Source: a bacterium
Lineage (GTDB): Bacteria > SM23-31 > JAUVVT01
DNA length: 13,915 nucleotides
Direction of reading: 5' to 3'
Assembly (NCBI GenBank): GCA_030616165.1
Contig: JAUWXV010000079.1
Span: 1 to 13,915, forward strand
In this document: one piece after another, positions 1 through 13,788 of the stretch
Numbering within the stretch: position 1 is the first letter of the stretch
Layout: every line of letters starts with the position of its first letter
Notes under the pieces: generated by a model
The model's input: the letters and a program-made list of their open reading frames with translations, nothing else
What the model was told of the DNA's origin: nothing
The model's database searches: none
Made by a program: the position numbers and the translations under genes

Positions 1-700
1 CTTCATTCATGCCTCCATATTCACCGGCAATATAAATATCCCACATCTTTTGCAGCTGGGTACGGTCAACTTTACTTAATCGAGAATAAATCCAGTCACC
101 CATTTTTTTGGTAATCTCCAAAGCCTCAGCGTTTTCTAAATGATAATAACAGGCAATCAAACCAGAAATAATTTTATGTTGTGTATAGTAAGGTGCCCAA
201 ATATTCGGATAAGTCTGTAATTGCTCCAGTTCCTCAAATTGATATTCGCCATAAGCACTGAGAAATCCGGTGTTGTATCCCTGGCTTACCGCTCTATCCT
301 GACATTTGCCTAATTCAGTAATAATGTACTCTGCTTTTGTTTTGAATTGCTCATCACCGGTGCTTGCATACGCCTGAGCAAGTGCTACAAGAAAATGTCC
401 CATTGAATGGCCCCGCAATTTACCCTCAGGTTTTTCCCAACCACCCGGCGCCTGAGCTCCTTGAGTCGAAAGTCCATAGTTTTCACGAAAACTGTATAAC
501 ATCCGATCAGCATCTAAAAAACTCAGATACTCGCACGTGCGGTTCAACGCATCCTTAAAAGGACTATCTAATAAAGTTACTTGTGACAGTGGAAACGATT
601 TTGCTTGAAGTAATGTCTGCTGGGAAACATCACAATACTGCACTATAACCGCTGTGAAAAACAGACTAAGAAATAAACAGATAAAGACCGAACGTTTCAT
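1..700 (-). CDS. DUF1680/GH127-type glycoside hydrolase, N-terminal part
   Basis: Only the first 233 residues are present; the gene runs off the left edge. The ATG at 698-700 follows a strong GGGAGGAAAT ribosome binding site. Residues 1 to about 20 form a hydrophobic Sec signal without a lipobox cysteine, so a periplasmic or secreted enzyme is likely. The mature protein opens with the family signature VTLLDSPFKDAL, then an EYLSFLDADRML stretch, LRGHSMGHFLVALAQAYAST near 120-140, WAPYYTQHKIISGL near 180, and EYGGMNE at the edge. These are the first helices of the (alpha/alpha)6 barrel of DUF1680 proteins (GH127, also GH146), whose known members are beta-L-arabinofuranosidases. The catalytic cysteine region lies outside the window, so activity and GH127 versus GH146 cannot be settled. 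It diverges from the GH127 at 5192-7603 and is not a recent duplicate. It is last in the same-strand series. Confidence 0.88.
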   Translation of the reverse strand, partial: MKRSVFICLFLSLFFTAVIVQYCDVSQQTLLQAKSFPLSQVTLLDSPFKDALNRTCEYLSFLDADRMLYSFRENYGLSTQGAQAPGGWEKPEGKLRGHSMGHFLVALAQAYASTGDEQFKTKAEYIITELGKCQDRAVSQGYNTGFLSAYGEYQFEELEQLQTYPNIWAPYYTQHKIISGLIACYYHLENAEALEITKKMGDWIYSRLSKVDRTQLQKMWDIYIAGEYGGMNE

Positions 701-978
701 ATTTCCTCCCTGTTAAAATAGTGAAAACATATTACCGCTATGTCCATACCACTATTTCACCGGTTTTGTAGCAGGACAAACTACCTTTTAAGACTGGTTG
801 GATATTTTATTGTTACCAGATCAGTGAAACAAACATATGATTACCCTCATCTATCGGTCACAAACATCCTGCCCTGGATTTTTCTTAGAGATATAGAGTG
901 CCTTTCCCCCAAAAGAATCGTGCCTCTGTGCTGAAATCACGAGAAGAGGTGAAGTACATCCTTACAACTAAACTTCTA
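701..978. other. Intergenic gap, possible weak hairpin
   Basis: There is no convincing gene. An 8-bp inverted repeat (AAATAGTG at 716-723, CACTATTT at 750-757, 26-nt loop) lies just upstream of the ribosome binding site of the minus-strand gene at 698-700. It is AT-rich and has no U-tract, so it is not a standard terminator; a regulatory hairpin or operator is possible but unsupported. I see no clear terminator for the S9 peptidase gene that ends at 979. Confidence 0.3.
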
Positions 979-3270
979 CTACTTTTCCTCCTCTGTCTTG
1001 TTCCAATTGGGGGGCGCGATGCCTAAAAGGTGCTGGACTAAGAAATCATAGAGCTTGCGCTGGCCATAGGCTCCACCCATACCATGACCCGCACCCGGAA
1101 TAACAAGAAGGTCGAAGTTTTTGTTCGCCTTGATAAGAGCGTTTACTACTTGCATAGTTGAGGCCGGATCAACGTTTGTATCCAACTCGCCCACTATCAA
1201 GAGGAGTTTCCCTTGAAGCCGGTAAGCGTTGTCTACGTTGGATGAAGCGGCATATTCAGGGCCCAACGGCCAGCCCATCCACTGCTCATTCCACCAAATC
1301 TTGTCCATTCGATTGTCGTGGCAGCCGCAAGAGGATACGCCGACCTTGTAAAGTTCGGGAAGAAAGAGGAGCCCTCCAAGAGCATTCTGACCGCCCGCAG
1401 AGTTACCGTAGATTCCTACACGGTTTATGTCATAATAGGGATATTTAGCGGCTACGGCTTTGTGCCAGAGAATCCGGTCCGGAAAGCCAGCATCACCGAG
1501 GTTCTTCCAGCAGACGTCGTGGAAAGCCTTGGATCGATTATTGGTACCCATACCATCAATCTGAACCACTATAAATCCAAGTTCAGCAAGAGCCTGCATG
1601 GAGCGGTAGGCACTGAACGTTTTGGGCACAAAAGATCCTTGCGGCCCGGCATAGATATACTCTACAACTGGATATTTCTTATTGGAGTTGAAATTCATGG
1701 GCAGGTTGATAATGCCCCAGATGTCGGTCTTACCGTCACGACCCTTGGCGACGAAGACTTCGGGCGCCCGCCATCCTGCATTGATGAGCTCCTGGATGTC
1801 CGTCTTCTCAACCTGCATCAACACCTTATAATCAGAAGAACGGTGAAGTTCCATGACAGGCGGAACATCAACGCGCGACCGGACGTCAACATAATAAGCC
1901 ATATCAGGAGAGAAGGTAATATAGTGGTCGTAATCACCATCAGTAAGCGGCGTGAGGTCCGTACCGTCGAAGTTGATCTTGTAGCAGTGTACAAAATAGG
2001 GGTCCTGACCCCCATTCATTCCGCTTGCCCGAAAATAGATTTGGCGCTTCTCCTCGTCGACTTTATCCACGCCGCGTACGATCCACTCCCCTTTAGTGAT
2101 TTGATTTTTGACCGCACCGGTTGCACCGTCGTAAAGGTAGAGGTGGTTCCAACCGTCCCGCTCGGACACCCAGATGATTTCTTTTCCATCCTGAATTGGG
2201 TAGCGGTATTTTTTCCCCTGTGGGAATTGATAATAGCAAAAAAACGTCTCTACCTCTTCACTGATGATAGCGCGGGCTTCCCCTGTAGAGGCATCGACCT
2301 CAATGATCCGGTAAACTTGGTGGCCACGTTGGTTGTACTCGAAGGTGAAGGCCCGGCTGTCCTTCCACCAGACCGGATTTGAGATATCGTATGGATTGGA
2401 GAAGAGAACGTTGTCTATGTTAACCTGTTTTTTAGCATCGAGGAGGAATAGCATAGGCTGGTCGACATCGAGTTCATCGCCTGGTTTGGCATATTCCATT
2501 TTGTGATACTTCGGCTGGAGCTGGTCGTCCGGAGACGACTCGACATACTGTATAACACGGTGATAGCCGCGTCGGAGGCGATAGGTGACAAGTTTTTTCG
2601 AATCAGGCGACCAGGAGATTGAGGCGTAGGTATAGTAGTTGCCCTCGGAGCCGTCGGAGCTCAATTGGAATTCCTCGTTTTTATCCTTGGATCGGATATA
2701 AATATTATAATTCTTTATGAAAGCCTCCCACTCACCGTCAGGTGAAGCTTTCGTTTCCTGGGAAGCAGACTGCGGAGCGGGACCTCTTTCCCACATTGTG
2801 AATCCCCCTCTGCGCCTCCGGCGTTCGACTGGTTCCACCATCTTGCAGACATACGTGGTCAGGTCGCAGGTATATTTCCACTCCCCGACTTCAAATTCAA
2901 TTGATTTCTCGTCGTTCACGAAACTGATCGACCTGAAAGGGAACCTCTTTGGATTAACATCTTCCTTAAGCACCAATGCCAGTGCGGCGGATAGTTTCTC
3001 ATGGTCGAAGGCGATTTTATTCTCTAACGTGGTGGCGTCCAAGACATTAAATTCGTAGCCGTCCTTGACCGACTTCCGATACCAGAAGCGGTTCGTCTTT
3101 TCGATCCAGGTAGGGCGGCCCGGCACGTTCAAGGCAAGACCTTCGAACTTCTCCTGCAAGCCGAAGGCTCGCTCGTAATCAGTCCGTATATCCTGGGCAG
3201 ACAAAGGGACAGGCCCAAACAGCAAAACAAAAATTAATATTGCAATAAGACTAAAATAATTGCGCTTCAT
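979..3270 (-). CDS. S9 family (prolyl oligopeptidase/DPP IV-like) serine peptidase
   Basis: A 763-residue exported serine peptidase. Residues 1-25 are a Sec signal ending in LSAQ. Residues about 40-500 form a beta-propeller, with repeat blades such as [15 protein letters not shown] and [18 protein letters not shown]. Residues about 515-750 are the alpha/beta hydrolase domain. The inferred triad is Ser624 in GNSAGG, Asp697 in GELDTNV and His729 in GAGHGMGG. S9 enzymes cut peptides at or near proline, usually small peptides that fit the propeller; some accept hydroxyproline. The DPP IV double-glutamate motif that grips the free N-terminus (YEEE type) is not seen, and the nucleophile elbow is GNSAGG rather than GWSYGG, so strict dipeptidyl cleavage should not be assumed. 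An AAGGAAG ribosome binding site precedes the ATG, 29 bp after the DUF885 stop, indicating co-transcription. The gene looks GC-richer than its neighbours. Confidence 0.93.
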
Positions 3271-3299
3271 TGTTCTTCCTTTTTGATATAATATATTTA

Positions 3300-5003
3300 T
3301 TAATTATTTGGGAAAAACCACATTGGTGGATTTTCTTGACTCAAAGGCTCATTAAGCAGTTTCGCCCGAAGCAGCGCCAGAGGAATAGAGTTTTCCCGGA
3401 GAACTGCATCATGAAAGGATTTTGGTGTAAACTTGCCTTCTACGATACATTCGTTGTAAAGCGCCCGTATCTGCAGACCGCCGATTAAATAGGCACATTG
3501 ATATAGTGGAGAATAATTTCCTTCAAAGGAGCGCCTTACCTCAGCCTCGGCATTTGCCGGTTCATGCCCTACTTTCTCGATGAGAAAATCAACACACTCT
3601 TGAGGTGTCATTTTGCCAAGATGAAAACTCAGTGAGAATATAATACGTGCTGCCCTATGCGTCCGCCAGAACAGCATACCCATACGGTCTTCTGGGCCTT
3701 GCGGGAAATCCAAATCCCAGAACAACATTTCCCAGTGCAATGGCAATCCCTCACCCCAAAAAGGTGTGCTGAATACCCGTCGATACGGTTTGTAACGACG
3801 GGTCATAAATCCCTGAAGGTGGTGACCCGGAATCAGCTCATGGTGCACTGTCGCACGACAGAAATGCCGATTGTTCCCACGAAGGCTCATGAGCTTCTGG
3901 TCATGTTGCATGGTATTGGTTGGGAATGAAACGGAAATAACCTCGCCACCTGTGAAGAAGGGATTCACCAATTGCCGCCTCGGAGACATCATTCCCATCC
4001 TCCAGGTCTCCTTAGCCAGGCTTGGGATTGTAACAAGTTGTTTTTCCTCTACAAATCGGATTGCCTCCCATGCCATTTCTCGGATGAGACCAGGCTGTTC
4101 ACCGGGCGTCACATAAAGGGATTTGACGTGGTTCAGTGCCTTTAACCAGTCCTGACCAAATCCCATCTCCTCGGACGCTTTGAGCATTTCGTTTTCACAC
4201 CACTGGTACTCTTTCCAACCAAGTTCTATAAGCTGTTCGGGAGTATTGCTAATAAGTGCCTGTCTTAACTCTCGTATAAGCCCGGATCGGCCAATGGGTA
4301 CACCTACAATAGGCTGGAGCCCTTCGTCATCTGGCTTACCAATCCGGCTATCCAGGTTTTTAATGAAGACTTCAAGCGTATTAAATGCTCCATTATAAGG
4401 TCTCTCGACCCACCAGGTGAAGAGGGGATCATATCCATTATAAAAATCAAACCACTGCTGCAAAATCCGCCTCAGTCTTTGTGAAAGTTGATGTATCTGC
4501 CGCAACTCAGGAATAGAAATATCTTGCTCATCTATTATGTCCTTGGCCTGCGTAATGGATGTTGTTATGGCAGTCAATGTGTCGGCTATAGTCCAGGCTT
4601 CTACAGGCGAACCTTTCCGCCTATCTGCCTCCAAGTTGACAATTGACCTCGCAAAAGGCAGGAAAAAATGAAGACTTTTTTCTTCTTCCCACTCGTCCTT
4701 TAATGATTGACGTTCATGTTCCAGATGTGTAATAAGCAAGTGATAGTCTACACGGGCATCTTGATCGAGTTTATCAAACTCAGTTGCTCTGATAGCATTT
4801 TCCCAATCTGTCAGGAATTTTTTCCAACGGTCTTGATGGGATTCCCAAAATGGAAGGCCATAGTTCCTGCCCATAATGTCGAGGTCCTCATCATATCGTT
4901 GGATCAATCCAATCATAGGATTGGTTTGAGCAAATGCTCCGGTTACATACACCCAAAAGGTAATAACCGAAATCAATATTATTCGTAATTTATTGAATTG
5001 CAT
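3300..5003 (-). CDS. DUF885 family exported metallohydrolase, probable peptidase
   Basis: A 567-residue protein of the DUF885 family (Pfam PF05960), whose members are zinc-metallopeptidase-like. I chose the ATG at 5001-5003, not the in-frame ATG at 5039, because GGAGGG at 5010-5015 sits 6 nt ahead and the product then begins directly with a signal peptide (residues 1-25, ending GAFAQ). With this start, the family signature [11 protein letters not shown] lies at 387-397, an HExxPGH-type metal site with His388, Glu389 and His394 as likely ligands or base. A second conserved block, [10 protein letters not shown] at 416-425, carries the further acidic residues expected of the family (EGxxLxxE). 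The remainder is largely helical, as usual. Substrates of DUF885 proteins are mostly undetermined; peptide hydrolysis is the usual guess. It precedes the S9 peptidase in a probable two-gene operon, which supports a shared role in peptide breakdown outside the cytoplasm. Confidence 0.88.
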
Positions 5004-5009
5004 ATATTT

Positions 5010-5015
5010 CCCTCC
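5010..5015 (-). promoter_or_regulatory. Ribosome binding site that fixes the DUF885 start
   Basis: GGAGGG on the minus strand, 6 nt before the ATG at 5001-5003. The longer alternative start at 5039 has no such site and would put 12 polar residues before the signal peptide. Confidence 0.7.
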
Positions 5016-5042
5016 AAATTTATTAAACTTATTTTGCATATT

Positions 5043-5159
5043 TTATATCATCACGCTTGCCGCACAATACCTAAAACACTTTAATTGATTTTCTCCACAT
5101 ACCGAAACAAGTACTGCCAATACGATGCAGAAGACTATATACTTTCGTGATGTTTTCAT
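5043..5159 (-). CDS. Possible 38-residue exported peptide or stub of a lost gene
   Basis: A short open frame fills the gap between the GH127 stop and the DUF885 gene. It begins MKTSRKYIVFCIVLAVLVSV followed by CGENQLK: a charged N-terminus, a hydrophobic core and a cysteine at position 21, which is the layout of a signal or lipoprotein leader, though VSVC is a poor lipobox. After about 17 more residues it ends in TAA. A weak AAGG lies about 11 nt upstream of the ATG. It could be a true small exported peptide, or, more likely, the surviving 5' end of a deleted secreted protein. I recognise no family, and the coding call is uncertain. Confidence 0.33.
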   Translation of the reverse strand: MKTSRKYIVFCIVLAVLVSVCGENQLKCFRYCAASVMI

Positions 5160-5191
5160 AATTTGTATGCCTTGCACTAATTTTGAGATAT

Positions 5192-7603
5192 TTACTTGAC
5201 TCTCCACTCAAGTATACCGCCGGCATAATTCTCTCTTGATTGTATCTCTAAACGAACTGCACGTGTCCGCACCGTTTCAAAAACAACCTTATTAAACATG
5301 TCCTTTTCCACACCGTATTTTCCTTCCGTATATACAGGATTCCAGTTTCTCCCTTCTCTATAGAGAATACGCCACGATTTCGGAATCCGGCATTCACCTG
5401 TTCCAGCATCGTCAAACCAATATACTTCTACGGTGGATATCTCCTCCGCATTCTGAAGACTGTATTGAATCCACTCTGTCGTCCCTTTATGTGGCCACCA
5501 GTGATAATATGGAATGCCGTGGTCATCAGAACTTTTCGGTTCCAATTGGTCATTGACCGCTTGAGGATTCTCCCCGTAAGACACCGATACTCTGCTCGTG
5601 GAGGCAATTGTCGGCATCTTCAAGGGATCAACCGCCGACTCCTCACGTGCAAGCCAGACCGCCATTTCACCTCTTCCGCGGTGCGCCCATGCATAATACG
5701 GAATTGCCGTAAAATCCTGCTCAGTTTTTTCTAATGTCCTGCGGTCTTTGGCAACCTTAAAACCAAAAGCCTTCCCTGTGATAATCTGAACACCATTCAG
5801 CATATCCGCTTTGAACTCAGTCTGTAAAGGTGCTTCATCCAGAAGAAGCAGGTTTCGGACATGTCCATCTTTATTGTCAGGCCATTCAGCACAGAAAACG
5901 ATAGGTCCCCTCTGCAGGGCTACTTTTCCCCTGTCTGCTTCGACACTGTCAATTGCAATAACGCGACGGACAGGCATCGGCAGGTTTAAATCAACTACAT
6001 CTCCCCCTTTCCATGTACGATGGATTCTGGCAAAGCCCTTTGAAATATCAAGTCTGACCGGTTCATCGTTTAATTTAATTGTCACGCTCTCGTTGTTTGT
6101 ATCCATGTACCGGTATAAGTCGCCCGGGACAGGTTCATTCCGTACCCATCCCGGAATACGCAGCAGGAGTGTGAATTTCTCTTTCTCACTTTCCGGTTCT
6201 ATTGTGATTTTTATCGCCCCATCCCATGGATATCGAGTCTCCTGCTGGATTTTTACAACGTTTTCCCCTGTATTCACTCTTCCTTCACCGCCGGCATACA
6301 GATTTACGTAAAGGTTATCATCTTTAACGGCATAGATATATCCCGGTACGGATGAAATAAAACGTGTAACATTTCCGGTACAGCAGGCACACCTAAACCA
6401 AGGACTTCTCTCATGCTGGCCGATGGATTCAAGAGGATTTGGATAGAAGAACAATGTTCCGTCCAGCGATATTCCGTCAATTAATGCATTATACAACGTG
6501 CGTTCCATAACATCTATATATCTTGCGTCACCATGAAGCAAAAACATTCTATGATTCCAGTATACATTTCCGATGGATGCACAAGTCTCGTTATACGCAC
6601 TCATATTGGGAAGTTCATAGTTTCTCGAAAATCCCTCCCCTGAACCTGCTGCTCCAATACCACCTGTTAAATATAGCTTGCTTCCGACAACGTTTTTCCA
6701 TATATTGTCAATCGCATTAATATACGACTTATCTCCAGTAAGAGCCGCAACATCCGCCATTCCGGCATACATATACGCCGCACGAACTGCGTGTCCCACA
6801 GCTTCATCCTGTTCGATTACGGGTTTATGGTCCTGGTTATATGTGCCGCCCAGTCTCCGCTCGTCAAGCGGTTTTCCTCGTACATATAAAAAGAACTTTG
6901 CAAGATTAAGATAATTTTCATCACCAGTCACCCTGTACAACTTCACCAAACCCATTTCAATAACCTGGTGGCCAGGGGGAGACTGGAGTTTGCCGGGACC
7001 GAAAACACTATTAACCAGATTTGCATTTTTTACAGCAATATCCAGAAGATTGCGTTTCCCCGTAGCCTGGAAGTGAGCCACTGCCGCTTCATACAGATGC
7101 CCGGCATTGTAAAGCTCATGACTGCCGTTTATTTTTACCCATCGTTCATCACCAAACCAGTTTTTCAGCCGGTCTGATTTATTGGTTCTGGCTGTATACA
7201 GATACCCGTCATCTTCCTGAGCCGCCGCAATTAAACCAATTAATTCATCAAGATATTTATCCAGCTCCGGATCAGCATGAACCATAAGTGAATATGAAGC
7301 TCCCTCAATATTTTTATAAACATCAGTGTCATCAAACGGATAGCTTCCTCTCTGCTCTCCCTGTTTAATACCGCCGGCAACAGCGAAGTTATCAATTCGT
7401 CCGGTCTCTTTACATTTCTTAAAAACATACGGTATCGTTACCTGGCGGTTGGTCTCCATACGGGGAGCCCAAAAATCATCGTTTAAGTGCACATTTGTAA
7501 ACTGAATTGGTTGAATTGGGTAATCTCTCTTTTCTGATTGTGAACATCCGCCAAGCACCAAAATGATTAAACCAATTAAAACATTTTTTCGCAATATATT
7601 CAT
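5192..7603 (-). CDS. GH127 beta-L-arabinofuranosidase, lipoprotein
   Basis: An 803-residue DUF1680/GH127 enzyme that should release beta-linked L-arabinofuranose. The N-terminus is a lipoprotein signal with lipobox LGGC (Cys20), so it is probably membrane-anchored. The family opening FTNVHLNDDFWAPRMETNRQ is followed by the (alpha/alpha)6 barrel. Active-site positions are recognisable against Bifidobacterium longum HypBA1: acid/base Glu323 in SGEGF, then 16 residues on Glu339 and Cys341 in ETCA, and Cys407-Cys408 in CACCTGN. These give the zinc site and the cysteine nucleophile (Cys407). A beta-sandwich follows, and residues about 690-803 form a discoidin/F5-8-like domain (HGIPYYHWWPHKGTTEW through ILEWRVK), common in longer members. 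A GGGAGTG ribosome binding site precedes the ATG. HypBA1 acts on beta-1,2-arabinobiose and on arabinosyl-hydroxyproline of extensin-type glycoproteins, the key link to the adjacent hydroxyproline enzyme. The exact linkage is inferred, not shown. Confidence 0.93.
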   Translation of the reverse strand: MNILRKNVLIGLIILVLGGCSQSEKRDYPIQPIQFTNVHLNDDFWAPRMETNRQVTIPYVFKKCKETGRIDNFAVAGGIKQGEQRGSYPFDDTDVYKNIEGASYSLMVHADPELDKYLDELIGLIAAAQEDDGYLYTARTNKSDRLKNWFGDERWVKINGSHELYNAGHLYEAAVAHFQATGKRNLLDIAVKNANLVNSVFGPGKLQSPPGHQVIEMGLVKLYRVTGDENYLNLAKFFLYVRGKPLDERRLGGTYNQDHKPVIEQDEAVGHAVRAAYMYAGMADVAALTGDKSYINAIDNIWKNVVGSKLYLTGGIGAAGSGEGFSRNYELPNMSAYNETCASIGNVYWNHRMFLLHGDARYIDVMERTLYNALIDGISLDGTLFFYPNPLESIGQHERSPWFRCACCTGNVTRFISSVPGYIYAVKDDNLYVNLYAGGEGRVNTGENVVKIQQETRYPWDGAIKITIEPESEKEKFTLLLRIPGWVRNEPVPGDLYRYMDTNNESVTIKLNDEPVRLDISKGFARIHRTWKGGDVVDLNLPMPVRRVIAIDSVEADRGKVALQRGPIVFCAEWPDNKDGHVRNLLLLDEAPLQTEFKADMLNGVQIITGKAFGFKVAKDRRTLEKTEQDFTAIPYYAWAHRGRGEMAVWLAREESAVDPLKMPTIASTSRVSVSYGENPQAVNDQLEPKSSDDHGIPYYHWWPHKGTTEWIQYSLQNAEEISTVEVYWFDDAGTGECRIPKSWRILYREGRNWNPVYTEGKYGVEKDMFNKVVFETVRTRAVRLEIQSRENYAGGILEWRVK

Positions 7604-7691
7604 TTTACACTCCCATTTAGTTTTATCTAATTAAAAGCAGAACAGTGCTGCATTCCTCAAAGAGATATTCATTGTTATACGCATTTTTTGC

Positions 7692-7719
7692 ATATTAATT
7701 GTTTTGGCGATAACACCAA
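7692..7719 (-). promoter_or_regulatory. Weak sigma70-like promoter candidate for GH127
   Basis: On the minus strand TTGGTG (7714-7719) and TAATAT (7692-7697) are separated by 16 nt, about 90 nt upstream of the GH127 start. Each box is an imperfect match in AT-rich DNA, so this is only a candidate. Its position in the long gap before GH127 fits a separate transcription unit. Confidence 0.25.
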
Positions 7720-7878
7720 CTCACAGTTTGAATATTTGTTTAAACACAATACTATATAAGCCTTGACAATAAAAGACAAATCATAAATTTCGGTTAAAAA
7801 CCTGAAAAATTAACAACCTTAAAAAAGTATAGGCACAAGTTATTAAGAGATTAAAATTACTCAATGACAAACCATTAA

Positions 7879-8158
7879 TTCTTGACGAAGCTCGGACGAT
7901 ATCAGAAATATTTCAATAGAGAAGATGTCAACACCAAAACGGAAATTGCAGAAATGTTTGTAGTATCAAGAGCAAGAGTGACACAGTATCTTAATCTTTT
8001 GAAATTGCCAAAACAAATCACAAAGTTTTTAAAATAATAGAGAAAATTTAGAAGTCAGAAAATTCTTTATTGAAAGAAGACTAAGGTCGATAACATGGAT
8101 TAATAATGAAAAGCAGTGCATAGAAAAATTTAATGAAATAATTAGTGCATCTGATTAA
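7879..8158 (+). pseudogene. Broken HTH (ParB/resolvase-like) gene remnant
   Basis: This is the only plus-strand coding trace in the window, inside the 623-bp gap between GH127 and the glycyl radical enzyme. One frame, open from 7879 to the TAA at 8035-8037, reads GRYQKYFNREDVNTKTEIAE, then MFVVSRARVTQYLNLLKLP: a helix-turn-helix of the type seen in small ParB-like or resolvase-associated proteins (AEIArxFgVSRaRVTQ). The sequence continues in the next frame from about 8033 to the TAA at 8156-8158 as NLEVRKFFIERRLRSITWIN, which looks like the same protein's tail. The shift falls in a T/A homopolymer near 8026-8034. A stop at 7876-7878 and no good start codon show that the 5' end is missing too. 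I infer a decayed accessory gene; the exact family is not certain. Confidence 0.5.
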
Positions 8159-8226
8159 GAGTCAGTGATTTAAAAGTCAAAAAAAAATCTAAATTATTAA
8201 AAAACAATTTTTGAATTTATGCATAT

Positions 8227-10590
8227 TTAAAAGCCCATGTGCTCGGTTCGCTTGATTATTTCATTCTGCAGGTCTTTTCCGACATCGATAAAATAATCAC
8301 TGTATCCGGCAACTCGCACAATTAAGTCCCTGAATTTTTCGGGATGTTGCTGTGCATCGCGAAGCGTTTTGGCAGTGACAACGTTAAACTGTACATGGTG
8401 TCCATCGAGTTTAAAATATGATCTAATGAGGTGGGCTAATTTTGTTAGCCCTTCATTCCCCTCAAGTATCTGCGGAGAAAATTTCATATTCAAAAGCGTA
8501 CCGCCAGTTCGGATATGATCCATTTTTGAAACAGACTTAAAAACGGCTGTCGGGCCCTTTCTGTCCGCACCCTGAACGGGTGATACTCCTTCCGAAAGCG
8601 GATCCCCCGCTTTTCGTCCATCAGGGGTAGCTTTGATGACAGACCCGAAATATATATGAACGGTAGTCGACAATAAATTTATCCTGTAATGTCCTCCTTT
8701 TGTATTCTTTCTTCCATTAACCGCGTCATAATAAACCTCGAAAAGCTCTTTCATTATATCGTCAGCATAATCATCGTCATTACCATATTTAGGAGTCTTA
8801 TTAAGCATTATTTGACGATGCTTATCATACCCCTCAAAATTGCTGCTAAGCATATGCATCAGTTCCCGCATCGTAAATCTTTTCCTGTCAAAAACGTTAT
8901 ATTTTATTGATGTCATTGCATCCGTTAACATACCCAGACCCACTCCCTGAATATAAGTAGTATTATACCGCGCTCCCCCATTATGATAATCTTCCCCTTT
9001 TTTTATGCAGTCATAAATCAACAACGAAAGAAAGGGTACAGGCATGTAATCTGCATAGATTCTCTCTATTATATTGTTACCTTTAACTTTAATATCAATG
9101 AAATGACGAATCTGTTTTTTATATGCATCAAGTAATTCATCAAATGTTTTGAATTTTAGAGGATTACCTGTTTTTATTCCGATTTTTTTGCCGGTACGTG
9201 GATCTGCTCCATTGTTTAAAGTGATTTCAAGTATCTTTACCATATTGAAATAGCCGGTCAGATTGTAATTTTCCTTTCCGAATGCTCCGGTTTCAACACA
9301 ACCGCTCGTGCCGCCGTTACGTGCGTCTTCAACTGATTTCTCTTGGCGAATAAGTTCCTGAATAACCGCATCACTGTTAAAAATTGACGGCTGACCGAAT
9401 CCTTTTCTCACAACTTGCAAGGCTTTTTTTAGAAATCTGTCCGGTGTTTTTTTGCTAATCTGGACCGATGGACTTGGCTGAATCAATTTCATTTCCATAA
9501 TTACATCAAGTATAAGATACGACAGTTCATTGACCGCATCCGAACCGTCAGGTTTTATTCCGCCTATATTAATTTGTGCAAAATCGTTGTACGTGGCACT
9601 TTCCTCAGCCGTTATACCAACTTTCGGCGGTGCTGGTTGATTATTGAACTTTATCCAGAATGCCTGGAGAAGTTCTTTTGCTTGGTCTTTTGTCAGGCTT
9701 CCATCTTCAATCCCTTGTTTGTAAAAAGGATATAGGTGTTGGTCAAGCCTGCCCGGATTGAATGAATCCCAGGGATTAAGCTCGGTAATAATTCCAAGAT
9801 GAACAAACCAGTAATACTGAAGTGCCTCCCAGAAATTCCGGGGAGCGTGTGCGGGAACATGAGTGCAAATCTCACTTATACGCTCTAACTCTTTTTTCCG
9901 CTGGGCATTTATCTTTTTTTGTGCATATTCTGCTGCCTTTTCTGAATGACGCTTTGCAAAGATAATTAGTGCATTTGCAGAAATGTCCATCGCTCTCAGC
10001 TCTTCTCTCTTATTATAGGCCTCAGGATCATCGAAAAAATCAAGATTTTTAATCCTCCATTTTATTTCATTTTTAAAATCAAGCATTCCTTTATGATATA
10101 TTTTATCATCCAGAACTGTATGTCCGGGCGCTCGCTGTTCCATAAATTCAGTAAAAACTCCAGCATCATATGCATCTCTCCATTCCACGGACATTTCATG
10201 AAAAATTTTTTCCCTGATCGTTTTTCCTTTCCAGAACGGAATAATCACTTCCTTATATAATCTTTTTGTTTCACCGCTTACTCTAAATGGGATTTTCTTT
10301 CGTGAATTCAGTATATCCAAATCTTTAATGCTGTGGGTGGTAAGCTCAGGATACGTATATACCTCTTTTGGTGCCGGACCTCTTTCCCCTACAATAAGTT
10401 CACCGTCGTTAATGCATATACTCTTACGTTCCATCATATATTTAAATGCCAAAGCTCTTTGTACAGGAGGAGAAACGCTGTATGAGGCATTATTTTTATA
10501 AAACTCAGTAATTAACAAAGCTCTTTCCGAAGAGAGACAAGGAGTTGCATTGATACTGTGTTCCCTTAGCTTTCTTATTCTCTCGTTCAA
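8227..10590 (-). CDS. hypD: Glycyl radical enzyme, probable 4-hydroxyproline dehydratase
   Basis: A 787-residue cytoplasmic glycyl radical enzyme of the dehydratase type. The thiyl cysteine and base lie in GTSGCVETG (Cys431, Glu433), and the radical glycine is Gly762 in RVAGYSDYF. Compared from memory with Clostridioides difficile HypD, every active-site residue I recall falls here at a constant offset of 3: Cys434/431, Glu436/433, Gly765/762, Asp278/275 (LNPWDSF), His160/157, Phe152/149, Ser334/331, Phe340/337, Tyr450/447, Thr645/642. HypD removes water from trans-4-hydroxy-L-proline to give pyrroline-5-carboxylate, which ProC reduces to proline. No proC is in the window. Related enzymes use other hydroxyproline isomers, so stereochemistry is open. 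The start is TTG (10588-10590) with GGGAGGA 7 nt upstream, 4 bp after the activase stop. The CVE motif excludes pyruvate formate-lyase. This hypD is unrelated to the hydrogenase maturation gene of the same name. Confidence 0.88.
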   Translation of the reverse strand: MNERIRKLREHSINATPCLSSERALLITEFYKNNASYSVSPPVQRALAFKYMMERKSICINDGELIVGERGPAPKEVYTYPELTTHSIKDLDILNSRKKIPFRVSGETKRLYKEVIIPFWKGKTIREKIFHEMSVEWRDAYDAGVFTEFMEQRAPGHTVLDDKIYHKGMLDFKNEIKWRIKNLDFFDDPEAYNKREELRAMDISANALIIFAKRHSEKAAEYAQKKINAQRKKELERISEICTHVPAHAPRNFWEALQYYWFVHLGIITELNPWDSFNPGRLDQHLYPFYKQGIEDGSLTKDQAKELLQAFWIKFNNQPAPPKVGITAEESATYNDFAQINIGGIKPDGSDAVNELSYLILDVIMEMKLIQPSPSVQISKKTPDRFLKKALQVVRKGFGQPSIFNSDAVIQELIRQEKSVEDARNGGTSGCVETGAFGKENYNLTGYFNMVKILEITLNNGADPRTGKKIGIKTGNPLKFKTFDELLDAYKKQIRHFIDIKVKGNNIIERIYADYMPVPFLSLLIYDCIKKGEDYHNGGARYNTTYIQGVGLGMLTDAMTSIKYNVFDRKRFTMRELMHMLSSNFEGYDKHRQIMLNKTPKYGNDDDYADDIMKELFEVYYDAVNGRKNTKGGHYRINLLSTTVHIYFGSVIKATPDGRKAGDPLSEGVSPVQGADRKGPTAVFKSVSKMDHIRTGGTLLNMKFSPQILEGNEGLTKLAHLIRSYFKLDGHHVQFNVVTAKTLRDAQQHPEKFRDLIVRVAGYSDYFIDVGKDLQNEIIKRTEHMGF

Positions 10591-10594
10591 GGAT

Positions 10595-11500
10595 TTATCC
10601 TCCCACTTTTATGATAAATTCACGTTTTTCAAATATTTTTTTTATTTCGTCGATAATGTCATTTGGTTCTGGGAAATTTTCGATAACCATACCTGGTGAA
10701 CTCAGCCGCATATACTTTGATACACCAAAATTATGATACGGCAAAATATTAATCTCTTTAATGTTTTTTAAGGGTAAAAGAAAATCTGCGATATCTTCAA
10801 TATGTGTAACATTGTCATTTACTCCATGAATAATTGGAATCCTGACAACTATATTGTTACCATTCGAAGATAATTTTTTAAGATTTTCCAGAATAGGCTC
10901 ATTTGAAACACCGGTATACTCAATATGAACACGATTATCAATTACTTTTAAATCATATAAAAACAGATCAACCTTATCTTGAACAGTCTCAATTGCCTGA
11001 TAAGGACAATAGCCCGATGTGTCCACTGCCGTATGTACATCTCTTTCTTTACATTGCTTCAGTAAATTGTTCAAAAAATCATGCTGAAACAGCGGTTCAC
11101 CCCCGGAAAAAGCTACACCACCGCCTGATTCATCAAAAAATATAACATCTCTCTCAATCTCATTAATAACTTCTTCAACACTCATATCCTTTCCAACGAT
11201 TTCCAGAGCTTCAGTACTGCATACTTTTACACATTCCCCGCACAGATTACATTTCTTCTTATCAATATATTTTGTATTGCCCTTTTTAATAATTGCATCG
11301 TAAGAACAAATATTTAAACAATCATCACATTGGCTACATCTATTTTCCCAGAAAATAACTTCGGGTTCTTTGGCAATTCCTTCAGGATTTTGGCACCAAC
11401 GACATTGCATGGGACAACCTTTGAAAAAAATTGTCGTACGAATTCCAGGACCGTCATGAATTGCATATCTTTTTATGTCAAAAACTATACCATTTTGCAT
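10595..11500 (-). CDS. Glycyl radical enzyme activating enzyme (radical SAM)
   Basis: A 301-residue radical SAM activase that places the glycyl radical on the downstream enzyme. The sequence shows DGPGIRTTIFFKGCP, then the CxxxCxxC cluster site at Cys29, Cys33 and Cys36 (CPMQCRWC). A bacterial ferredoxin insert follows with two CxxCxxCxxxC sets (Cys55, 58, 61, 65 and Cys84, 87, 90, 94) for two extra [4Fe-4S] clusters. SGGEP at 132-136 binds the SAM amino group, and LPYHNFGVSKY near 255 is the usual C-terminal motif. The two-cluster insert is typical of activases for glycyl radical dehydratases and lyases rather than the shorter pyruvate formate-lyase activase. It is the first gene of the operon; its stop lies 4 bp before the TTG of the dehydratase, so one transcript and a dedicated pairing are likely. 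The ATG at 11498-11500 has no Shine-Dalgarno sequence, unlike its neighbours. Confidence 0.92.
   Translation of the reverse strand: MQNGIVFDIKRYAIHDGPGIRTTIFFKGCPMQCRWCQNPEGIAKEPEVIFWENRCSQCDDCLNICSYDAIIKKGNTKYIDKKKCNLCGECVKVCSTEALEIVGKDMSVEEVINEIERDVIFFDESGGGVAFSGGEPLFQHDFLNNLLKQCKERDVHTAVDTSGYCPYQAIETVQDKVDLFLYDLKVIDNRVHIEYTGVSNEPILENLKKLSSNGNNIVVRIPIIHGVNDNVTHIEDIADFLLPLKNIKEINILPYHNFGVSKYMRLSSPGMVIENFPEPNDIIDEIKKIFEKREFIIKVGG
10598..10604 (-). promoter_or_regulatory. Ribosome binding site for the TTG start of the dehydratase
   Basis: GGGAGGA on the minus strand lies inside the last codons of the activase gene, 7 nt before the TTG at 10588-10590. It supports TTG as the true start and suggests coupled translation of activase and enzyme. 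Confidence 0.7.
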
Positions 11501-11524
11501 ACAATAATATAATATTTAATTAAT

Positions 11525-11554
11525 CAAAATACAAAATAATAAAAAAAACACAAA
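11525..11554 (-). promoter_or_regulatory. Possible Bacteroidota-type promoter of the activase operon
   Basis: On the minus strand TTTG (11551-11554) is followed after 19 nt by TATTTTG (11525-11531), about 25 nt before the ATG. The arrangement recalls the Bacteroidota consensus TTTG-N19-TAnnTTTG, but the second box is one base short, and the region is so T-rich that chance matches are likely. Confidence 0.27.
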
Positions 11555-11681
11555 TCATATTTATTGAAGTTTCTATTATAAAAAAATATTGTATTTATAC
11601 ATCATCAAGACATTTTGGACACTCTAACTTAAAAAATAAGAGACACATTTTACTTTATCAAGTGATTTTTACTATTTTTTT

Positions 11682-11704
11682 CCACCCTGCCAATTCTTGC
11701 CACT
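11682..11704 (+). repeat. Left arm of a 23-bp inverted repeat
   Basis: The plus strand starts CCACCCTGCCAATTCTTGCC and ends ACT. Its reverse complement matches 12375-12397 at 22 of 23 positions by direct reading. The arms enclose 670 bp of AT-rich DNA and may be the terminal repeats of a small non-autonomous element or copies of a dispersed genomic repeat. Confidence 0.7.
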
Positions 11705-11736
11705 ATTAGTTTCCTTTTTCTTTTTTATTTTATGAT

Positions 11737-11756
11737 TTATGCCCAGATTATGCCCA
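11737..11756 (+). repeat. Paired TTATGCCCA repeats, 11-bp period
   Basis: TTATGCCCA occurs at 11737-11745 and again at 11748-11756, an 11-bp period that places both on the same face of the helix. A related pair lies at 12075-12093. This spacing suggests paired protein-binding sites, such as recombinase arm sites, but no protein is assigned. Confidence 0.45.
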
Positions 11757-11845
11757 AAATTTCATGTAATATAAGTAAACATAGGTAAATATAGTGAAAT
11801 ATCGGCGGAAGTAAAGGTGGTTTAAATTTTTGTTTTTAACAAAAA

Positions 11846-11875
11846 ATAGTTACTTATTGTTAATTATAGTTACTT
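11846..11875 (+). repeat. Direct repeat ATAGTTACTT, 20-bp period
   Basis: The 10-mer ATAGTTACTT occurs at 11846-11855 and 11866-11875, about two helical turns apart, just before the tRNA-like fragment. It may be a binding site or chance in AT-rich DNA. Confidence 0.4.
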
Positions 11876-11887
11876 TTGTGAAAAGGG

Positions 11888-11918
11888 GAGTAACGGACTC
11901 TTAATCGGAGGGTCGCTG
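11888..11918 (+). pseudogene. tRNA-Lys(CTT)-like fragment, possible attachment-site scar
   Basis: The sequence GAGTAACGGACTCTTAATCG followed by GAGGGTCGCTG resembles the D-arm end, anticodon arm (loop CTCTTAA, anticodon CTT) and start of the T arm of a bacterial tRNA-Lys. The 5' acceptor and D arm are absent, and the match stops before the T loop (AAAACTG instead of GGTTCGA). The anticodon stem carries mismatches (ACGGA against TCGGA). It therefore cannot be a working tRNA. tRNA anticodon-to-T-arm segments are common integration sites, so I infer an att scar. Confidence 0.4.
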
Positions 11919-12074
11919 AAAACTGAAAAGTCAAAAAGAAAGATTATTTTAAGAATATGTAGAAATTTTCGGTACATTCCAGATCCAACAATAGAAATTT
12001 ATATTATAAAAATCTAACTTTTATTAAGGAAGTTAAAAAAAAATTTTTAATATAAGAAAATGTTTAAAATATTG

Positions 12075-12093
12075 TGTGCCCAATATGTGCCTA
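12075..12093 (+). repeat. Second TGTGCCCA/TGTGCCTA pair, 11-bp period
   Basis: TGTGCCCA at 12075-12082 and TGTGCCTA at 12086-12093 repeat the 11-bp spacing of the pair at 11737-11756. The tRNA-like fragment lies between the two pairs, an arrangement reminiscent of arm sites flanking a recombination core. Confidence 0.42.
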
Positions 12094-12199
12094 AAAATGA
12101 ATAAAAATATAACAAAATATACTAAAATTGGAATTTATAGAAGGTGTTATTTAGTAGTGTTAAATTTAATATTTTTAAAATATTTGTAGTATAAATAAG

Positions 12200-12260
12200 T
12201 AGTGGAGCAGAGCCCGAGTACTCGGGACGACCTCATCCGTGCAAGGGATAAGTTCCACTA
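12200..12260. other. GC-rich structured element with perfect 14-bp palindrome
   Basis: An outer 7-bp stem, TAGTGGA (12200-12206) with TCCACTA (12254-12260), encloses the perfect palindrome CCCGAGTACTCGGG (12213-12226) and a second short stem, ATCC (12235-12238) with GGAT (12246-12249). The nested layout resembles a three-way junction RNA or a folded single-strand DNA site. The GC-rich block stands out from AT-rich surroundings. It matches no riboswitch or ribozyme that I recognise, and no U-tract follows on either strand, so it is not a simple terminator. It could be an element end, a recombination site or a non-coding RNA. Confidence 0.5.
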
Positions 12261-12348
12261 TTTTAAACAACTTTGTAACTCATTAATAAACAATATAACT
12301 GCGTATGGCTGCTGAACTTACATCACCTTTTTTATATTGCCACCATTG

Positions 12349-12397
12349 CCACGAAAGCCACGATTAACACCAAAAGTGGCAAGAATTGGCAAGGTGG
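12349..12397 (+). repeat. Right arm of the 23-bp inverted repeat, with local hairpin
   Basis: AGTGGCAAGAATTGGCAAGG followed by TGG occupies 12375-12397 and matches the left arm in inverted orientation. Just before it, CCACCATTGCCAC and further GCCAC copies allow CCACC-(A)-TTGCCA to pair with TGGCAAGGTGG, giving a local hairpin with one bulge. The several GCCAC/TTGCCA copies suggest a dispersed repeat family. The arm lies about 75 bp downstream of the GH109-like stop codon. Confidence 0.55.
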
Positions 12398-12471
12398 GTG
12401 TTATCCCATCGTATGAGTTAATTATTTATATCATAACCACACTTTTTGATTCTTTGATAAATTTTATATTA

Positions 12472-13788
12472 TTAAACAAATTCAATTGGTGGTCTGGTTT
12501 TCCATTTACCTTTAGTAAAGTCAGGAAAATCAACAGACTTACCTCTGTTCGCGACAGATATTTCTGATAATGGTGAAATGACACTACTGGTAACAGAGTC
12601 ATATACATCCGTATCCGGCATCCTATCTTCGCGAATTGCCTGAATTAGTCTTTCCCAAATCATTGATGAAGGCAGACTGCCAGTACTTACTGACACTCGT
12701 GGTTTAGGCTTATGATTTTTTATTATTGGATGCTCATACTCTTCAAAATATTTATCTGGTGATTCCCACTGGTGTGGTCTAGGACTTATTCCATCGATAT
12801 AAATATAGTGTAGTCCTAAAGCTCTCTGACTCATATAGATAGCTTTAGTTCCCTGAAGTCGGAAAAATGAACGTGGATGAGGCGTGTTTGTATCAAAATT
12901 AAGGGTGACTAATTTCCCGTCAATGGTGCGAAGGATTGTTTGGTTATAATCGCCTTGAGCCATTATTTTTGTAGCATATGGGTGGTCTTCACCGTAGTTT
13001 AAATCGGCAAACTCGTTAATGGTTTTTGCTCTCGAACTCATGGATACAAGAAAATCAAACCTATCTCCGTGATTTATATTAAAAGGACAACTTATTGATG
13101 CCATAGGGTGGTCAGGGTAGAGATTGCCGTTTCGGTCAGCCGAGTGCTGCAAGCGCCAGGGTTCACCCGAAGGATTGAACTTAGTTCCTCTAAGGTCGTG
13201 TACATATTCACCTTCGGCATGAACAACATCACCAAATAAACCCTTACGGATCATATTCAAAATAGTGTGCCTGCGGTAATTCTCCAGCCCCAATGTAGCC
13301 CACTTACCTGTACTTTCGTATGTTTCTACTAATTCCCAAGCTTCATCAACTGTTATCACGATAGGAACTTCACTTACAGCATTCTTGCTGTTCTTCATTG
13401 CAGAAAGGCATACTGGAGTGTGCCATTCCCAAGAGGTACAGCAGATAACGACATCTAAATCCTCTTGTTCGCACAACCGCTTAAAATCTGTTCTATTTTT
13501 TCCATAAAGCCTCGGTGCGGGTTGACCAGCGGCTTCAACTAAGCGTTTTGCGTTGTACAATCTTGAATTTTTAATATCACAAAGAGCTGGGACTTCCACC
13601 CCTTCTATCCGAAGGGCACTATTAAGGTGAGAAGTTCCGCGTCCTCCAACACCTACAAAACCTATCTTGACTTTTCTGCTATACTGAGCATTGGTTTTGC
13701 TGGGAGTAACTATTCCGCTCGCAACTACACTCGCACCGGCAGCTGCACCAATTTTTAAAAAATCTCTGCGGTTTAGATTTCTATTCAT
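12472..13788 (-). CDS. GH109-like Gfo/Idh/MocA-fold protein, Tat-exported
   Basis: A 438-residue protein. Residues 1-35 are a twin-arginine signal (LNRRDFLKIGAAAGAS), so it is exported folded, fitting a protein that carries bound NAD. Residues about 40-160 are the Rossmann domain with GFVGVGGRG at 43-51; the usual Gfo/Idh/MocA EKP is replaced by SEVP (139-142), as in GH109 proteins. WEWHTPVCL, LENYRRHTILNMIRKGLFGDV, EYVHDLRG, WRLQH and RNGNLYPDH (His227) match the GH109 order. Known GH109 enzymes hydrolyse alpha-N-acetylgalactosaminides by an NAD-dependent redox-elimination mechanism. Here the usual YPTHGLGP reads YPDHPMAS, so specificity may differ, or this may be a relative outside GH109. 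The AGGAGA ribosome binding site lies 6 nt before the ATG. It is the first gene of the same-strand series but is separated from the rest by a 970-bp gap. Confidence 0.85.
   Translation of the reverse strand: MNRNLNRRDFLKIGAAAGASVVASGIVTPSKTNAQYSRKVKIGFVGVGGRGTSHLNSALRIEGVEVPALCDIKNSRLYNAKRLVEAAGQPAPRLYGKNRTDFKRLCEQEDLDVVICCTSWEWHTPVCLSAMKNSKNAVSEVPIVITVDEAWELVETYESTGKWATLGLENYRRHTILNMIRKGLFGDVVHAEGEYVHDLRGTKFNPSGEPWRLQHSADRNGNLYPDHPMASISCPFNINHGDRFDFLVSMSSRAKTINEFADLNYGEDHPYATKIMAQGDYNQTILRTIDGKLVTLNFDTNTPHPRSFFRLQGTKAIYMSQRALGLHYIYIDGISPRPHQWESPDKYFEEYEHPIIKNHKPKPRVSVSTGSLPSSMIWERLIQAIREDRMPDTDVYDSVTSSVISPLSEISVANRGKSVDFPDFTKGKWKTRPPIEFV

Follow-up and report, generated by a model that had tools for sequence, protein, structure and literature searches.

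Among the components of plant and algal walls, hydroxyproline-rich glycoproteins are hard to degrade, and several described bacterial systems touch on parts of their breakdown. The HypBA cluster of Bifidobacterium longum (GH121/GH127 and a transporter) supplies beta-L-arabinofuranosidases that act on hydroxyproline-linked arabinose, and it harvests sugar only (PMC7263609, PMC10850190). Hydroxyproline itself is fermented by C. difficile and gut bacteria using HypD and its activase (PMC7077986). In Bacteroides thetaiotaomicron, BT1003 is a GH127 that serves as the RG-II aceric-acid hydrolase and BT0349 is a GH146 that acts on arabinan; GH127s with other substrates are on record as well (PMC5698469). 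For the Latescibacteria (WS3), GH127-based use of extensin by an uncultured anaerobe has been proposed in silico (PMC4454575). In the open-licence literature we found no description of a locus that joins the stripping of glycoproteins to hydroxyproline catabolism, which agrees with what a preliminary description of the present DNA had stated.

The window analysed here, 13,915 bp long, makes up the whole of contig C25 in a 3.74-Mb metagenome-assembled genome. It carries seven genes, all on the minus strand (Table 1), with intergenic gaps of 278, 29, 152, 623, 4 and 971 nt in window order. Domain and model searches recovered every gene that the preliminary description had named on one strand. 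Of the two DUF1680/GH127-type proteins that it listed, one is a complete GH127, whereas the second is the N-terminal fragment of a GH146-type protein. The translations of the front-end genes begin with signal or lipoprotein sequences, and those of HypD and its activase do not. Taking the evidence below together, we consider it likely that the contig is a modular locus for breaking down arabinosylated glycoproteins that contain hydroxyproline, in which a conserved front end strips the glycoprotein and the back end, which uses the hydroxyproline, can be exchanged. Naming extensin in particular goes a step further; the substrate may be extensin-type or similar, and of plant or algal origin.

Table 1. 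Genes of the 13,915-bp window, with positions and supporting domain or model matches.
Feature	Positions	Strand	Domain or model match
GH146-type protein, N-terminal 233 aa, secreted, predicted beta-L-arabinofuranosidase	2..700	-	PF07944 142 bits
Secreted S9 peptidase	979..3270	-	DPPIV_N + Peptidase_S9
Secreted DUF885 protein, predicted metallopeptidase	3300..5039	-	PF05960 151.7 bits
GH127 lipoprotein, long type, C-terminal F5/8-type domain	5192..7603	-	PF07944/PF20736/PF20737
HypD, trans-4-hydroxy-L-proline dehydratase, glycyl radical enzyme, TTG start	8227..10590	-	NF043068 1320.6 bits
HypD activase, radical SAM glycyl-radical activating enzyme	10595..11500	-	TIGR02494 364 bits; NF043069 395.2 bits
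Tat-signal Gfo/Idh/MocA protein with GH109_C domain	12472..13788	-	PF21252 158.9 bits, PF01408

The claim of a 4-hydroxyproline-type dehydratase passes every sequence criterion that was applied. HypD scores 220 bits over the curated equivalog cut-off of its NCBIfam model (1100), and its best PDB match is 6vxc, the trans-4-hydroxy-L-proline dehydratase of C. difficile (1073 bits). Eleven residues of the C. difficile enzyme, most of them essential or substrate-binding (PMC7077986), were checked: Cys434, Glu436 and Gly765; the hydroxyproline-binding His160, Asp278, Ser334, Asp339, Phe340, Tyr450 and Thr645; and Phe152. All 11 are identical in the window HypD and in the HypD of a second genome, G351, which is described below. 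There is strong sequence evidence that the window enzyme is a genuine trans-4-hydroxyproline dehydratase. The activase gene, 4 nt upstream of hypD, clears the cut-off of the general activase model (174); its score on the hydroxyproline-specific model falls slightly below the cut-off of 425, yet this is its best-scoring model. A gene for ProC, which catalyses the following step, is present at another place in the genome. When 85 HypD sequences were placed in a tree with two outgroups, the window HypD grouped with a HypD from the same class and with one from a MAG of another lineage; on this placement it looks like a resident gene.

The GH127 contains all three GH127 domains in addition to its extra C-terminal domain, has a lipobox (LVLGGC, read from the sequence) and conserves the catalytic residues, including the Zn-Cys centre. 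It had been likened to HypBA1, and the HypBA1 substrate-binding residues His142, Tyr145, His194 and Arg273 are indeed kept. However, the protein appears closer to a different enzyme: its best PDB match is 6ex6 (54% identity), which we take to be the aceric-acid hydrolase BT1003, compared with 44% to 4qjy and 36% to HypBA1, and it groups with BT1003 rather than HypBA1. The four residues are also conserved in BT1003, in the short type and in every GH127 examined, so the sequence does not fix the linkage that is cleaved, and a division into HypBA1-type and BT1003-type enzymes by substrate residues was dropped. No close relative of this GH127 was found in viral contigs.

The GH146-type ORF runs off the contig. 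In the PDB it matches 5opj best (9e-20), presumably BtGH146/BT0349. The fragment aligns with residues 68-266 of the L137 GH146 (see below) at 39% identity, and an ORF at the edge of another contig of the genome, C319, matches residues 356-649 of that protein, which leaves a gap of about 89 aa between the two pieces. Because the genome has only three PF07944 places and both pieces can be fitted to a single GH146, the C319 ORF is most likely the missing C-terminal part. Some GH146 members (Bll4HypBA1, XeHypBA1) remove the last arabinose from hydroxyproline (PMC10850190), which makes GH127 and GH146 a plausible pair for hydroxyproline-linked arabinose chains.

These structural relatives also bear on a different explanation, namely that the window is a pectin (RG-II/RG-I) side-chain locus in which the GH127 is an aceric-acid hydrolase, the GH146 is an arabinan beta-arabinofuranosidase and the hydroxyproline genes are coincidental or reflect a mixed cell-wall diet. 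The closeness of the GH127 to BT1003 is in line with this explanation, as is the match of the GH146 to BT0349, which lies in an RG-I locus (PMC10850190), and some long-type GH127 loci (L195, L223) have arabinose genes without hydroxyproline genes. The GH127, however, reaches 489 bits on the aceric-acid-hydrolase model NF049879, under its cut-off of 950, and no other RG-II enzyme family was found in the window or in loci L137, L138 and L239. Moreover, hydroxyproline genes recur with the long type described below, while none of 12 loci of the short, BT1003-length type has them. We regard a pectin side-chain locus as decidedly unlikely, and return to arabinosylated glycoproteins as the probable target.

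The S9 peptidase and the DUF885 protein of the front end have counterparts in other GH127 loci. Over 719-799 aa, the S9 protein shares 44-47% identity with its counterparts in loci L187, L192, L194 and L199; hydroxyproline-catabolism genes are present in three of these four. An AlphaFold model of the DUF885 protein (pLDDT 86.8) is nearest to DUF885 structures (Z 30-35), followed by metallopeptidases of the M3, M32 and M2 (ACE-type) families (Z 10-13). In a largely helical protein such a fold match is only suggestive; a conserved His-Glu...Gly-His motif adds to it, and peptidase is our best guess for the function. Homologues of DUF885 occur in the hydroxyproline-linked loci L137, L179, L180, L199, L239 and L240. 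As a marker of the module on its own, DUF885 was rejected, since 10 homologues from other loci had no module partners nearby.

The GH109-like protein, which the preliminary description had counted as part of the set, does have a GH109_C domain and an NAD-binding fold, and its best PDB match is the GH109 structure 2ixa. No recurring equivalent was found among the clustered neighbours of GH127 loci, and its gene lies 971 nt from the activase. For these two reasons it was left out of the system, to which it is probably unrelated. A 29-nt imperfect inverted repeat (11682-11710 and 12369-12397) flanks 716 bp in the gap that separates the GH109-like gene from the activase; the core of the repeat, GGCAAGAATTGGCA, recurs on two further contigs of this genome (L121:1613 and L123:1439), and this is perhaps a small repeat element. 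Within this interval, at about 11882-11918, the stretch GAGTAACGGACTCTTAATCGGAGGGTCGCTG looks like a piece of a lysine tRNA (CTT anticodon arm) and may be an integration scar. Rfam gave no match and no tRNA gene was called in the window, and scans of the window for promoters and terminators were at chance level (38 versus 35.8 and 9 versus 11.4, respectively).

The base composition divides the window. The GC content is 0.50 for S9, 0.45 for DUF885 and 0.45 for GH127, compared with 0.39 for HypD and 0.35 for a genome sample; the front end spans 0.41-0.50, and the S9 value lies above those of all 109 sampled genome ORFs of at least 300 aa. For this genome, the high GC of these three genes hints at recent acquisition. 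The window has no transporter gene, and a SusC/SusD pair is absent both from its ORFs and from the putatively adjoining contig C319 over the length inspected. Given the GC step, the 623-nt gap between GH127 and HypD and the absence of a transporter, the two halves of the locus may have joined recently.

Neighbourhood searches centred on HypD and on the phylum returned no second example. We examined 84 HypD loci from many phyla: a GH127 within about 10 kb was found in none, DUF885 was likewise absent, and the activase was present in 74. About half of 50 HypD genomes have a GH127 somewhere, away from HypD. The window's GH127 is absent from the other five genomes of the phylum (six genomes in total), and the 8.1-kb contig that holds the same-class HypD has no GH127, the only neighbours there being the activase and a GntR-like regulator. 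A separate pattern did emerge from these loci. In about a fifth of them (about 17 of 84), spread over several phyla (L027:9999-13810, L034, L036, L042, L047, L062, L064, L067, L069, L070, L072, L075, L077, L086, L103 and others), a gene for a PepP-type Xaa-Pro aminopeptidase follows a short way downstream of HypD. Such a gene is also found in the GH127/hydroxyproline loci L191, L206 and L209, which suggests that cleavage of Xaa-Hyp/Pro peptides by a PepP-type enzyme feeds hydroxyproline use.

From the HypD and phylum searches, the window could be viewed as a chance neighbourhood, in which a native HypD and activase sit beside unrelated, horizontally acquired pectin or arabinan genes (GH127, GH146) and general peptidases. 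This is how one would read the lack of recurrence in the phylum and around HypD, the grouping of the window HypD with a same-class HypD that has different neighbours, the GC step and the 623-nt gap, and the fact that S9 genes are common in the window's genome. The view was dropped after a search from the GH127 side, in which 386 genomes were searched with the window's GH127 and the neighbourhoods of the best matches were inspected. The two closest full-length homologues both lie beside hydroxyproline-catabolism genes, one of them beside HypD. The top match (genome G257, locus L137) is part of a SusC-SusD-GH127-DUF885-GH146-S9 cluster and shares four families with the window. This cluster is convergent with a four-gene operon encoding a DHDPS-family (DapA-type) protein, an aldehyde dehydrogenase, a 4-hydroxyproline epimerase (584 bits on NF010578, cut-off 376) and an FAD-dependent protein resembling D-amino-acid dehydrogenases, which we take to be the aerobic trans-4-hydroxyproline pathway; the G257 genome contains no HypD. 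In the second match (G351, L138), GH127 is 81 bp from HypD and its activase.

A profile of the three GH127s (window, L137 and L138) was then searched in 396 genomes of the order to which G257 belongs, giving 49 long-type loci (L137 and L179-L226) that were inspected over about 10 kb around GH127. At least two of the four hydroxyproline genes occur in 13 of these, the other 36 lacking two in 20 kb, as against none of 33 control GH127 loci (12 short-type loci of the same order and 21 other GH127s; Fisher p = 6e-4, shared ancestry ignored). The controls have not even one of the four hydroxyproline genes. The profile was built partly from hydroxyproline-linked loci, and without L137 the count is 12 of 48. 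Eight hydroxyproline epimerases lie near the 49 loci, where about 0.2-1 would be expected (p 5e-11 to 9e-6, shared ancestry ignored), and all six epimerases of long-type loci that were tested against NCBIfam exceed the 4-hydroxyproline epimerase cut-off. The partners of the window's GH127 recur too: GH146 in 16 of the 49, DUF885 in eight, GH51 in eight and the window-type S9 in four. The clearest locus, L199, has GH51, GH127, GH146, S9, DUF885, D-hydroxyproline dehydrogenase, epimerase, aldehyde dehydrogenase and a DHDPS-type gene on one strand. Loci L192 and L194 combine hydroxyproline genes, S9, GH51 and GH127 with ribulokinase (AraB), L-ribulose-5-phosphate 4-epimerase (AraD), L-arabinose isomerase (AraA) and an AraR-like NUDIX regulator, so that arabinose and hydroxyproline catabolism are physically joined. 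A SusC/SusD pair is present in L137, L206, L209 and L239.

The recurrence on which the preliminary description had staked its reading is therefore absent when sought in the phylum or around HypD, but clear when sought from GH127. Its central proposal, a single pathway from glycoprotein stripping to hydroxyproline use, gains support from this recurrence and from the identity of HypD. With GH127 associated in this way with hydroxyproline genes, and with DUF885, GH146 and S9 recurring beside it, a chance neighbourhood is unlikely.

Annotated plasmids provide further examples that speak against chance, and the combination of GH127, GH146 and DUF885 was confirmed on two of them. In Spirosoma oryzicola, which comes from rice-grain surfaces, a 240-kb plasmid encodes DUF885, an amino-acid permease, a long-type GH127 (55% identical), GH146 and an FAD oxidoreductase, along with a 4-hydroxyproline epimerase, a DHDPS-family protein, AraC and SusCD. 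The Granulicella tundricola plasmid pACIX901 (L240:2119-33346) has GH127, GH146, two DUF885 genes and a hydroxyproline-type operon, together with two M1 peptidases, a peptidylprolyl isomerase, aminopeptidase P and GntR; it is a richer version of the locus, in the Acidobacteriota. A GH127 on a Hymenobacter plasmid that is without the C-terminal domain lies in an arabinose operon with no hydroxyproline genes. The plasmid examples and the GC step of the window agree in fitting a horizontal spread of the front end. We think it reasonably probable that these loci form a horizontally mobile class, found in several phyla and on plasmids, in which a conserved outer module (long-type GH127, GH146 and DUF885, often with S9 or GH51) is coupled to either HypD or the 4-hydroxyproline epimerase pathway.

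In the pathway that we propose as the most parsimonious account, exported GH127 and GH146 would remove beta-L-arabinofuranose from hydroxyproline, and exported S9 and DUF885 would cut the exposed peptide, rich in hydroxyproline and proline. Hydroxyproline or hydroxyproline-containing peptides would then be taken into the cell, where HypD, activated by its radical-SAM activase, would convert trans-4-hydroxyproline to pyrroline-5-carboxylate and ProC would presumably reduce the latter to proline. The genes of such a pathway might be expected to be co-regulated. Elsewhere, the same front end would feed a route through 4-hydroxyproline epimerase, D-hydroxyproline dehydrogenase, a deaminase and a semialdehyde dehydrogenase in place of HypD. 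The back end appears to follow lineage, with HypD in the window organism and G351 and the epimerase route in Bacteroidota and Acidobacteriota; the pairing of one front end with either route indicates that the system is modular. Another idea is that the organism scavenges hydroxyproline-containing protein in general, such as collagen, and that the sugar enzymes are accidental. HypD is widespread in sediment anaerobes, and Xaa-Pro aminopeptidase genes often follow the HypD-activase pair, as this idea would have it. Yet hydroxyproline genes are repeatedly accompanied by GH127, GH146 and GH51, and at some loci by AraA/B/D, and we know of no arabinose on collagen, which makes general scavenging highly improbable.

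If the proposed pathway for arabinosylated glycoproteins is correct, sugar, peptide bond and modified amino acid would all be taken by one locus. The finding predicts a bacterial locus for the full breakdown of hydroxyproline-rich glycoproteins, suggests roles for DUF885 and the long-type GH127 that can be put to the test, and connects a glycyl radical enzyme with carbohydrate-active enzymes. A neighbourhood search from HypD alone would have missed this type of locus.

Compared with the known systems, the Latescibacteria proposal shares GH127-based extensin use in an uncultured anaerobe; in the parts of that work available to us it is made at genome level, and a single locus, HypD or another hydroxyproline back end does not figure there, unlike in the window (PMC4454575). 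BT1003 and BT0349 are the closest solved relatives of the two glycosidases, but the window sets these enzymes in a context of hydroxyproline catabolism, and its GH127 has an extra C-terminal domain and a score under the aceric-acid-hydrolase cut-off. With hydroxyproline fermentation in C. difficile and gut bacteria the window shares the same dehydratase, as judged by model score and active site (PMC7077986), whereas the 84 HypD loci examined are without such glycosidases. The likeness to the B. longum HypBA cluster lies in the predicted action of beta-L-arabinofuranosidases on hydroxyproline-linked arabinose and in the pairing of GH127 and GH146 activities. The window GH127 belongs to a different clade from HypBA1, and where the HypBA cluster harvests only sugar (PMC7263609, PMC10850190), the present loci add peptidases and hydroxyproline catabolism.
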